A stretch of DNA of 64,000 bases from Klebsiella sp. BIGb0138 (lineage in GTDB: Bacteria > Pseudomonadota > Gammaproteobacteria > Enterobacterales > Enterobacteriaceae). The notes under the pieces are model-generated. The model was given only the letters and a program-made list of their open reading frames with translations. It made no database searches and had not been told where the DNA came from. Below are positions 29,581-32,273 of the stretch, piece by piece (the first letter of the stretch is position 1; every line of letters begins with the position of its first letter). The position numbers and the translations under genes were made by a program. Location: positions 124,001-188,000 of the forward strand of contig NZ_SMCV01000002.1 in assembly GCF_004342285.1 (NCBI RefSeq). The letters run 5' to 3'.

Positions 29581-30765
29581 ATGAGTTCTGTTCTGCCTTC
29601 TGCCGGCCGCCGTAATCTGCTGTTGATTGCCGGAATTTTATTAATTGCCACCACCCTGCGGGTGACCTTTACCGGCGCCGCCCCGCTGCTGGATGCGATT
29701 CGCGCGGAGTACGGCCTCACCACCGCGCAAACCGGGATGTTAACCACCCTACCACTGCTGGCCTTTGGCCTGGTCTCCCCGCTGGCGGCAGGCGTCGCCC
29801 GCCGTTTGGGCATCGAACGGAGCCTGCTGTTAGCATTGGTGCTGATTTGCCTGGGGATTGGATTACGTTCCCTGCCGTCCACCGCTCTGCTTTTTATCGG
29901 CACCGCCATCATCGGCTGCGGCATCGCATTAGGTAACGTGCTGTTGCCGGGCTTAATCAAGCGTGATTTCGCGCAACATGTCGCCAAAATGACCGGCGCG
30001 TACTCGCTCACCATGGGCGGCGCGGCCGCACTGGGGTCGGCAATGGTCGTCCCCCTGGCGCTCGCCGGTTTTGGCTGGCGCGGCGCGCTCTTTATGCTGA
30101 TGGCCTTCCCGTTGCTCGCGCTGCTGTTCTGGCTACCGCAGGCGCGTAAGCAGGCCACCGCACCGCTCACCGGTTCCGGCGCGATGCACAATCGTGGGAT
30201 CTGGCGTTCGGCGCTGGCCTGGCAGGTGACGTTGTTCCTCGGCATCAACTCGCTGGTCTATTATGTGGTTGTCGGCTGGCTGCCGGCGATCCTGCAGAGC
30301 CTCGGCTACAGTGAAGCGCAGGCCGGCTCCCTGCATGGCTTACTCCAGCTGGCGACCGCCGCCCCGGGTATCGCGATCCCACTGATTCTCCACCGGCTGA
30401 AGGATCAGCGCGGCATCGCGATCCTGGTGGCCCTGATGTGCGCAGTCAGCGCCGGAGGTTTGTGGTTCTGGCCCGGCCAGGCGGTGCTGTGGACGCTGAT
30501 CTTCGGTTTCGGTTCAGGGGCGACGATGATTCTGGGGCTGACCTTTATTGGCCTGCGCGCCAGCTCCGCGCACCAGGCGGCAGCGCTGTCTGGCATGGCG
30601 CAAACGGTCGGTTACCTGCTGGCCGCCTGCGGGCCGCCGGTGATGGGGAAAATTCATGACGCCAACGGCGACTGGCATATCCCCCTGATTGCCGTCGCGT
30701 TAATTTCCGTCGCGATGGCCGTGTGTGGCGCCCTCGCCGGGCGCAGCCGGGAGATTAACGGGTAA
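29581..30765 (+). CDS. nimT: MFS exporter NimT (YeaN)
   Basis: 394-residue CynX/NimT-type major facilitator transporter with about twelve hydrophobic segments (E. coli 393 residues). In E. coli it exports 2-nitroimidazole and is controlled by NimR. Motif LATAAPGIAIPL and the paired halves fit the family. Divergent from nimR with the direct-repeat operator in between. Confidence 0.9.
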   Translation: MSSVLPSAGRRNLLLIAGILLIATTLRVTFTGAAPLLDAIRAEYGLTTAQTGMLTTLPLLAFGLVSPLAAGVARRLGIERSLLLALVLICLGIGLRSLPSTALLFIGTAIIGCGIALGNVLLPGLIKRDFAQHVAKMTGAYSLTMGGAAALGSAMVVPLALAGFGWRGALFMLMAFPLLALLFWLPQARKQATAPLTGSGAMHNRGIWRSALAWQVTLFLGINSLVYYVVVGWLPAILQSLGYSEAQAGSLHGLLQLATAAPGIAIPLILHRLKDQRGIAILVALMCAVSAGGLWFWPGQAVLWTLIFGFGSGATMILGLTFIGLRASSAHQAAALSGMAQTVGYLLAACGPPVMGKIHDANGDWHIPLIAVALISVAMAVCGALAGRSREING

Positions 30766-30876: not shown

Positions 30877-31569
30877 TTATTGAGCCGCGGTATGTAAAAA
30901 CGCCTGTACCAGCGGCGATGGGCGCCCTTCCAGCGCGTTGCGTTCATGCTGGAACAATGTCGCCACAAAGAACGGATGGGTGACCAGTTCCACCGCCCGA
31001 ATCTCCCCCTCTTCATCCCAGCCGGTCACCCGCAGGTCGCCCTGCTCCAGCTCACGGGCAAAGTCGTCAGCAATGCCGTAGTTACAGTGGTAACCCTCTT
31101 CGATTTTATCGCGGCCGTAGGCCCGGGCAATCAGGGTATTCGCGCGCAGTTCAATCGTATCCGACTTTTCAACCAGCGAGCAGCTTAACGGCGCAATGAT
31201 CATGCGCCCTTCGGTGTCGGTTTCCGCATGCGCCGCATCTTCCCAGCCCATCACGTTACGCGCATATTCGATAATCGCGTGCTGAAAGCCCCCGCAGGTA
31301 CCGAGGAAAGGGACGCTATTTTCGCGGGCATGACGAATGGCGATAAACGCGCCCTCGGCGTTCTTGTACGGGCTGGCGGGAACCAGCCAAATCGCGTCGT
31401 AATCGGCAACGGCGTCGGCATGATGAATATCGCTGGTTGCCAGCCAGTCATAGCGAACGGGCAGTTCCAGCACGGCGGCGGCATCATCGATAGCAAGGGG
31501 AATCGCTTTATGTGCAATCACGTCGGGATGGTAGTCGCCAACCAGGGCAATACGCAGGGGGGTGTTCAT
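30877..31569 (-). CDS. CTP-synthase-like class I glutamine amidotransferase protein
   Basis: 230 residues aligned to the C-terminal amidotransferase domain of PyrG, without the synthetase half. The nucleophile is C92 in FLGTCGGFQHAIIEYARNVMGW (PyrG has LGICLGMQ...IEYARN). PyrG's catalytic FHPE is replaced by FQHE: the His is shifted by one position (H208) and Glu kept (E209). HCNYGI near 161 corresponds to PyrG HRYEVN. It is a stand-alone gene, not in the E. coli block, with no obvious partner. Either a glutaminase-like enzyme with altered geometry or a non-catalytic sensor; function unknown. Confidence 0.85.
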   Translation of the reverse strand: MNTPLRIALVGDYHPDVIAHKAIPLAIDDAAAVLELPVRYDWLATSDIHHADAVADYDAIWLVPASPYKNAEGAFIAIRHARENSVPFLGTCGGFQHAIIEYARNVMGWEDAAHAETDTEGRMIIAPLSCSLVEKSDTIELRANTLIARAYGRDKIEEGYHCNYGIADDFARELEQGDLRVTGWDEEGEIRAVELVTHPFFVATLFQHERNALEGRPSPLVQAFLHTAAQ

Positions 31570-31751: not shown

Positions 31752-32273
31752 GTGGACGGAATGATGAAGAGCAAGATTCTGGTCAGCGCCTGCCTGATGG
31801 GTTTTCAGGTGCGCTATAACGGCAGTGATAAAGCACAGCTCACCGAAACGCTGGCCCGCTGGCAGCGCGACAACCGGCTGGTGATTCACTGCCCGGAACT
31901 GGCCGCCGGTTTGCCGGTTCCCCGACTCCCGGCAGAAATTCTCAACGCCCAGGGGGCGGATGTGATGCGGGATCGCGGGCGCATCGTCGAAAGCGACGGC
32001 CATGACGTCACCGCCCACTATCAGCTGGCCGCCTGGCTGGCATTGCGGGCCGCTCAGGAAGCCGGCTGTGCAGCCGCATTGTTGACCGACGGCAGCCCCA
32101 CCTGCGGCAGCCAGTTTATCTATGATGGCACCTTCAGCGGGCAGAGAAAGCCGGGTTCCGGCGTTGCCGCCGCTCTGCTGCGCGAGCACGGCATTACGGT
32201 TTTTTCCGACCGGCAAATACCCCAGCTGCTTGCCTGGATGGCACAAAAGGAGAACAGCGATGATTCAGTGTAA
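31752..32273 (+). CDS. DUF523 family protein
   Basis: 173 residues. The DUF523 cysteine motifs are present: VSACLMGFQVRYNG, HCPELAAGLPVPR and TDGSPTCGSQ. A GTG start at 31752 is preferred, as GAGGAG lies 5 bases before it; ATGs at 31761 and 31764 are alternatives. It overlaps yeaO by 14 bases, so the two are co-translated. The conserved cysteines suggest a metal or redox role, which is inference. Confidence 0.85.
   Translation: MDGMMKSKILVSACLMGFQVRYNGSDKAQLTETLARWQRDNRLVIHCPELAAGLPVPRLPAEILNAQGADVMRDRGRIVESDGHDVTAHYQLAAWLALRAAQEAGCAAALLTDGSPTCGSQFIYDGTFSGQRKPGSGVAAALLREHGITVFSDRQIPQLLAWMAQKENSDDSV

Follow-up and report, generated by a model that had tools for sequence, protein, structure and literature searches.

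The gene at positions 30877-31569 of the window (the whole 64,000-nucleotide stretch of Klebsiella sp. BIGb0138 DNA that was analysed) raises the question of how a protein built like the glutaminase domain of CTP synthase could work when the motif that carries the catalytic histidine of CTP synthase PyrG, FHPE, reads FQHE. The initial annotation, made from the sequence, took the protein for a stand-alone amidotransferase in which the histidine had moved next to the glutamate, and it offered two readings, namely a triad that works with changed geometry or a domain that became a binding or regulatory module. The question is whether the histidine has moved or has been lost, and, if it has been lost, what the protein may do instead.

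Results

The gene and its protein

The open reading frame, as given in the list of open reading frames for the window, is intact and encodes 230 amino acids on the minus strand.

30877..31569, minus strand: NF004836/PRK06186 protein gene, ATG at 31569, stop codon at 30877-30879, 230 amino acids
31577..31581, minus strand: AAGGA, Shine-Dalgarno-like, the likely ribosome-binding site upstream of the ATG, read from the sequence

The protein contains the nucleophile elbow GTCGGFQ (with C92), then IEYARN, then FQHE at residues 206-209, and the elbow (as TCGGFQ), IEYARN and FQHE that the initial annotation had listed are all read in the 230-residue frame. The synthetase half is absent, as had also been claimed, and the frame matches only positions 289-527 of 534 of the PyrG model. 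A scan for promoters and terminators gave nothing above chance.

In the 5.6-Mb genome of Klebsiella sp. BIGb0138 (32 contigs), a search at E up to 0.001 finds one copy of the gene and, at the same threshold, a separate PyrG on contig C8 as a 550-residue open frame. Of 106 relatives the best 80 were kept, and among these the closest one with a name comes from Raoultella ornithinolytica (92%), followed by Klebsiella, Raoultella, and Enterobacter records. The gene has no match in 5,426 E. coli genomes in a blastn search, which is a search at the DNA level only. Carriage by phage was considered and set aside: 16 phage records contain matches, all below 60% identity, and the 10 that were listed look like PyrG of bacterial contigs.

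Family membership and predicted fold

The protein matches the NCBIfam equivalog NF004836/PRK06186, whose name is "CTP synthase C-terminal region-related (seleno)protein" (NCBIfam), with 337.8 bits (E 2.1e-101) against a cut-off of 260. The match is full length without extra domains, residues 5-228 lying on model positions 1-227 of 228. At the site of the GxUxG motif known from the Sec form of the family, the window protein has GTCGG with a Cys codon, TGC, rather than Sec, and it also differs from most lineages of the family in reading FQHE instead of FQPE. The PyrG equivalog models score well below their cut-offs (118.6 versus 308 bits and 113.9 versus 462.75 bits) and are matched in their C-terminal part only, the N-terminal ATP-dependent synthetase domain of PyrG being absent; the likeness to the C-terminal domain of PyrG is nevertheless far above chance, with E 3e-34 to a PyrG model. 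Pfam GATase (PF00117) is matched with 37.3 bits versus a cut-off of 22.8, and Peptidase_C26 (PF07722) falls short with 18.4 bits versus 20.5.

By its sequence, the protein is a full-length, Cys-form member of NF004836/PRK06186, a family which already has a name and ranges over Enterobacteriaceae, Methylobacter, Streptomyces, and Nonomuraea, among others. The initial annotation was prepared to give up its reading if the protein clearly belonged to a characterised family, and this came half true: membership in an NCBIfam equivalog is clear, but we found no characterised function for NF004836/PRK06186.

An AlphaFold2 model built from 37 alignment rows has a mean pLDDT of 92.2 and a pTM of 0.91. 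The best solved relatives of the model are CTP synthases, and it superimposes on E. coli CTPS (8i9o) with a Z score of 31.2 and an rmsd of 2.0 Å over 226 residues at 27% identity. After the CTP synthases, the next-best solved structures among the matches listed are gamma-glutamyl hydrolases of the class-I fold, PuuD (Z 21.6) and SpuA (Z 21.0), but their identity is only 14-18%. PuuD and SpuA are stand-alone Cys hydrolases. The model thus retains the glutaminase-domain fold of CTP synthase. The description of the protein as a stand-alone CTP-synthase-like class-I amidotransferase domain, with no synthetase domain in the frame, is supported.

Relatives used for the residue counts

Relatives over the 260-bit cut-off were taken from three overlapping genome draws (24 of 398 at the phylum, 40 of 149 at the family, and 5 of 369 at the class), together with 80 named genome loci, which are the best 80 of 106 relatives, and 8 plasmid records. 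The plasmid records with a match numbered 81; of the 40 that were listed, most stood at a PyrG-like identity near 30%, and 8 were taken. In total 194 loci contain a match. There are 29 PyrG rows (28 different), which serve as the control, and merging identical rows leaves 133 unique members, including the window's own copy (L001). L028 and L158 (one broken copy) are too short and were left out, and L030 (truncated) and L170 (partial) are counted in the 133 but stand outside the tree and the clusters described next. Eight further members over the cut-off, beyond the best 30 of one draw, lie outside both the 133 and the tree.

The members are heavily enterobacterial, and we also counted one row per 60% identity, which gives 19 clusters. 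The tree is a quick tree of 72 members below 88% identity, rooted with 6 of the 28 PyrG rows; 33 of its 75 inner branches are open, and it is flagged for long branches that meet.

A second, longer CTP-synthase-like group is present in Enterobacteriaceae (L201-L204, in G475, G503, G528, and G374), with open frames of 406-474 residues and an N-terminal part of its own. L201-L203 keep GLCLGMQ and GHPE and lie beside PLP-aminotransferase-like and M24-type-peptidase-like genes, as judged by eye, and L204 has lost both the Cys (GINQGM) and the His (GQPE). These loci were set aside, three of the four read having kept Cys and His.

The FQHE site

E. coli numbering was carried over through the genome's own PyrG with C92 anchored on Cys379, and His515 and Glu517 then fall on Q207 and E209. 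The three codons of interest, placed by this alignment, are as follows.

30949..30951, minus strand: Gln207 codon CAG, at the place of the PyrG catalytic His515
30946..30948, minus strand: His208 codon CAT, at the place of PyrG Pro516, the "shifted" His of the initial annotation
30943..30945, minus strand: Glu209 codon GAA, equivalent to PyrG Glu517

Aligned in this way, the histidine has not moved next to the glutamate; Q207 replaces His515, and H208 replaces Pro516. The canonical class-I triad (Cys-His-Glu, with its His in FHPE) is broken, as the initial annotation had said, and the break extends to the whole family as sampled. The His515 place is Gln in 129 of the 133 unique members, Val in 3, and a gap in 1 (a truncated row), and it is His in all 28 PyrG controls. 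Homologues with FHPE, which had been thought of as a sign that FQHE is a strain variant, did not appear: His is found in 0 of the 133 (one gap) and in 0 of the 8 further members, where residue 207 is Gln in 8 of 8 and residue 208 is His in 3, Ser in 3, and Pro in 2.

The neighbouring positions behave differently. Residue 208 is His in 101 members, Pro in 29, Ser in 2, and a gap in 1, and the Glu209 place is Glu in 129, Gln in 3, and a gap in 1. When the members are reduced to the 19 clusters at 60% identity, residue 207 is Gln in 16 and Val in 3, and Pro prevails at residue 208 (17 clusters, against one each with His and Ser). In the 72-member tree, the FQHE rows form one enterobacterial clade with at least two changes, such as a single gain and a reversion to Pro in L057. 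An alignment of homologues had been proposed as a check on whether FQHE is conserved, and it is not; among the members on the tree, His208 marks the enterobacterial clade.

Relatives from other lineages have FQPE, which shows that Gln took the place of the catalytic His before a new His arose beside it. From the aligned sequences we conclude that the triad His was lost early, in an ancestral step from FHPE to FQPE, and that a change from Pro to His then gave FQHE. On this alignment FQHE is the product of two separate substitutions, which the initial annotation took for one shift, and the Pro-to-His change at H208 in Enterobacteriaceae would be neutral or a matter of fine-tuning. H208 is flanked by Q207 and E209 in the window protein and most unique members, which could suggest an active triad of shifted geometry, C92-H208-E209. 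With Pro in 17 of the 19 clusters and Ser in one, however, H208 cannot be the family's general base, since a base that catalysis depends on should also be present in the other members. On the column counts together with the tree we reject such a triad, which we regard as barely credible.

A small subgroup (L027, L139, and L168) reads FVPQ in place of FQPE, and both the old triad His and the Glu are gone there; L168 (the same as L196) also has Asn in place of C130.

Other conserved and changed residues

Four further positions stand out in the alignment with PyrG, and their codons are listed here with the residues found in the 133 members and in the PyrG controls.

31294..31296, minus strand: Cys92 codon TGC in the nucleophile elbow GTCGGFQ, equivalent to PyrG Cys379; Cys in 133/133 members and in 28/28 PyrG
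31510..31512, minus strand: His20 codon, at the place of PyrG Tyr305, a candidate replacement base; His in 133/133 members, Tyr in 28/28 PyrG
31180..31182, minus strand: Cys130 codon, at the place of PyrG Thr417; Cys in 132/133 members and Asn in one, Thr in 27/28 PyrG
31084..31086, minus strand: Cys162 codon, at the place of PyrG His469, between Arg468 and Arg470; Cys in 133/133 members, His in 28/28 PyrG

All four are present in 8 of 8 further members, and across the 19 clusters at 60% identity C92, C162, and H20 are each found in 19 and C130 in 18. Overall, 28 columns are identical in at least 131 of the 133 members, and 13 of these differ from the commonest PyrG residue.

Compared with the glutaminase domain of PyrG (E. 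coli CTPS; PDB 8i9o, 1s1m), the window protein has the same fold and keeps Cys379, Gln383, Glu403, and Glu517, but it has no synthetase domain, and it has Gln for His515, P-S-P for G351-F353-G354, Asp for K297, Asn for R470, and Cys for H469. Throughout the family the old pocket is kept at Q96 (Gln383) in 133 of 133 and at E116 (Glu403) in 132 of 133. The loop G351-G352-F353-G354 of PyrG, on its oxyanion side, has become P-(A/G/S)-S-P, the places of G351, F353, and G354 being Pro in 132, Ser in 132, and Pro in 133 members, and the Gly352 place being Ala in 96, Gly in 33, Ser in 3, and a gap in 1. The Lys297 place is Asp in 128 of 133. The places of R466, R468, and R470 are most often Gly (107), His (107), and Asn (94), with Arg still present in 5, 18, and 9 members; in full, the Arg470 place is Asn in 94, Ser in 26, Arg in 9, Gly in 2, Gln in 1, and a gap in 1, and Arg is found there in 5 of the 19 clusters.

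Several of these positions are known to matter in CTP synthase. According to a review of CTP synthase (PMC9138612), the triad includes His515 and Glu517, GTP appears to be contacted by Arg468 and Arg470, and Gly352 of EcCTPS connects the oxyanion hole, at its rigid part, with lid L11. By the same account, Pro at Gly352 of EcCTPS abolishes both Gln-dependent CTP formation and labelling by DON (PMC9138612). The Pro residues of the family stand one residue before and two after the Gly352 site (Pro64 and Pro67 here), and G352P is an engineered change in another protein, so for the role of Pro64 and Pro67 it offers an analogy and does not prove it. Since residues known to matter have changed, the glutaminase and its control by GTP appear to be largely dismantled, with the nucleophile held fixed. 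The glutaminase site is not wholly erased: some members keep Arg470 or Gly352, and change is rare at the places of E403, Q383, and E517. Our search of the open-access literature, which covered text outside figures and supplements, found no printed account of the loss of the triad His or of the gain of H20, C130, and C162.

The selenocysteine form

A 2026 review lists NF004836 as a selenoprotein with the motif GxUxG, and its abstract places Sec in active sites (PMC13188914). A 2025 study reports that a glutamine amidotransferase (COG0504) is a selenoprotein of Desulfosediminicola ganghwensis and that the study's new genes have SECIS-like structures and TGA-containing homologues (PMC12013277). 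GxUxG fits GTCGG, and by our own reading of the motif the Sec of the published form would therefore stand at the position of C92. Among the relatives read here we saw no Sec form, and the rows listed contain two in-frame stops, neither of them at C92; the evidence for Sec comes from the two publications.

These stops are a TAG in G016 and a TGA in G420, the latter a frame-broken copy in an assembly that is 49% complete. Broken copies of the gene are L158 (the TAG in G016), L195 (frame breaks, G420), and L200 (match split over two frames, G581).

The gene neighbourhood

On one side of the gene the window contains an MFS transporter gene and an AraC regulator gene, and on the other side a divergent TudS-type gene and a DUF488 gene. 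The two direct neighbours are given for context only.

31752..32273, plus strand: divergent neighbour, DUF523/TudS-type thiouracil desulfidase (PF04463, 137.5 bits)
29581..30765, plus strand: convergent neighbour, MFS transporter (PF07690), called "CynX/NimT" in a Klebsiella record

We compared this order across 70 named loci, which are those of at least 12.6 kb among the 80 named loci, with flanks of about 6 kb; the 80 are enterobacterial by title save one Chryseobacterium. The transporter is found in 69 of the 70, AraC in 68, DUF488 in 61, and TudS in 32. The frequent company of the transporter, AraC, and DUF488 genes looks like common enterobacterial synteny. The Chryseobacterium entry (L081, CACSKA010000011.1, titled Chryseobacterium sp. 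18061) has enterobacterial gene order and about 80% identity, and it is probably a mislabelled or contaminated assembly.

CTP synthase acts on C4 of uridine nucleotides. TudS is a [4Fe-4S] enzyme that acts on C4 of uridine nucleotides (PMC10611767), and the DUF523 family, to which TudS belongs, also has a published Sec form (PMC13188914). A functional link between the two genes was considered on the grounds that both families have Sec forms and that both enzymes act on C4, but 38 of the 70 loci yielded no TudS within flanks of about 6 kb, and we set the link aside.

Of another 33 loci, 7 are enterobacterial and several contain broken or partial gene copies. A LysR-type regulator is directly adjacent and divergent in 13 of these 33 (L140, L142-L144, L146-L150, L154-L156, and L159), a raw count that carries no chance expectation and rests on a profile built from six LysR proteins of these same loci, with Pfam support for seven of the 13. 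Four of the 13 are Actinomycetota plasmid records, and nine are genomes of the window's class. LysR is not adjacent in the other 20, which include all 7 enterobacterial loci; left uncounted are L151-L153, where it lies one gene further away, and L161 and L165, where the match is weaker and 2-3 kb away.

On a plasmid of Streptomyces sp. NBC_01708 (L138:2480-6705), the NF004836 gene is the last of a tight, overlapping run that consists of a hypothetical gene, an EPSP-synthase-like gene, a BPG-independent phosphoglycerate-mutase-like gene, and a second hypothetical gene before it, and the run looks like a small biosynthetic operon. In G010 the gene follows an aminotransferase class V gene. No synthetase, amidoligase, or acceptor gene was found beside the NF004836 gene among the neighbours scanned against Pfam; outside the window most neighbours were grouped by clustering only, and an uncommon partner could have escaped notice. 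The observation in the initial annotation that there is no obvious acceptor-domain partner thus stands for the loci read. Two loci filed as plasmids, L141 (NZ_CP076548.1, 221.6 kb, linear) and L145 (NZ_CP045066.1, 10.9 kb, circular), have chromosomal gene order around the gene and may be chromosomal pieces or excised segments.

Discussion

Taken as a whole, the evidence is best explained, with a probability of roughly 0.5, by a family that arose from CTP synthase's glutaminase domain, does without the synthetase half, and now provides a stand-alone Cys/Sec enzyme with non-glutaminase chemistry. In such an enzyme C92 (Sec in some bacteria) would still be the nucleophile but would no longer hydrolyse glutamine in the manner of a triad. 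It would attack a small electrophilic metabolite to form a thioester (or selenoester) or an adduct, H20 and/or D12/E116 would do the work of the missing His, and the product would be released without an acceptor domain. The gene would act alone, as a metabolic or detoxification enzyme, and in some bacteria the divergent LysR would control its expression, which would follow a LysR-sensed inducer where this regulator is present.

PDB entries are titled SpuA H221N "with glutamyl-thioester", and H221 is presumably the catalytic His of SpuA, as judged from those titles rather than from an alignment to the window site. The titles suggest that, once its His is gone, such a protein of related fold can still be acylated but may stall as an acyl-enzyme, and this makes ordinary glutamine turnover by the NF004836 family unlikely. 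In the DJ-1/PfpI superfamily (e.g., isocyanide hydratase), the Cys sits in a nucleophile elbow and some members have no classical triad His; we take the acid of that superfamily to come from the loop after strand 1, where the NF004836 family has D12/H20. Pfam gives no DJ-1/PfpI hit for the window protein at E up to 1, nor does one occur among the 50 structures listed, and in the DJ-1 literature we found nothing on the NF004836 family in the titles and abstract openings found.

The chief rivals to a stand-alone Cys/Sec enzyme are a redox or metal site built from three cysteines and a sensor module without catalysis. A catalytically dead pseudoenzyme, with the old pocket serving to sense glutamine or some other ligand, would fit the loss of the triad His throughout the members read, the changed loop and mostly changed Arg470, and neighbourhoods without a fixed enzyme partner. 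This is close to the binding or regulatory module of the initial annotation, and it keeps a place among the possible readings, but a dead site would be expected to drift, and here the nucleophile Cys is invariant in 19 of 19 clusters at 60% identity and its other published form is Sec; the position of the gene at the end of the Streptomyces run also speaks against it. We regard a dead module as unlikely, though worth keeping in view. The invariance of C92 would equally fit a redox, metal-binding, or structural role. If C92 (Sec in some bacteria), C130, and C162 meet in the old pocket, they could form a disulfide or selenenylsulfide relay or bind a metal or Fe-S cluster, with the glutaminase origin supplying only the scaffold. 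The near-complete conservation of the three cysteines, two of them at places where PyrG has His and Thr, argues for this site, as does the published Sec at GxUxG (PMC13188914 and PMC12013277), and because DUF523, with the [4Fe-4S] enzyme TudS (PMC10611767), also has a Sec form, there is room for a metal or redox role of C92. Against it, one member (L168/L196) has Asn for C130, and the presence of TudS in only 32 of 70 loci means that adjacency is no functional proof. Overall a three-cysteine site seems doubtful to us, and we know of no precedent for a nucleophile-elbow Cys as a cluster ligand.

A glutaminase that survives with another general base, either H20 or a residue of a partner yet to be named, and that passes ammonia to this partner in trans would explain why C92, Q96, and E116 are kept, why the Arg470 place is still Arg in a few members, and why the class-I fold is intact in the model. 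Set against this are the exchange of Arg470 in most members, the P-S-P replacement of the loop, and the lack of any synthetase or acceptor gene beside the gene in the loci read, and we consider a surviving glutaminase quite improbable. The boldest reading would have an entire lineage of the CTP-synthase glutaminase domain rebuilt around another active site. In the pocket that once bound glutamine, C92 or Sec, C130, C162, and H20 would together make up a centre for redox chemistry or metal binding, or else a nucleophilic site of a new type, with a chemistry not known from class-I amidotransferases; this also strikes us as unlikely.

Several public records call the gene plain "CTP synthase", a misleading name for a protein that has no synthetase domain and that, judged from its conserved residues, has also lost much of what a glutaminase needs. 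The oddity first reported for this locus, a shifted histidine, dissolves, and a better-founded one replaces it: an amidotransferase fold with a fixed Cys/Sec and no catalytic His. The divergent LysR found in part of the genomes is a route to the inducer and thus to the substrate, and a family that keeps its nucleophile, even as Sec, without the catalytic His would be a clear and testable example of how the amidotransferase fold can be put to a different chemical use.
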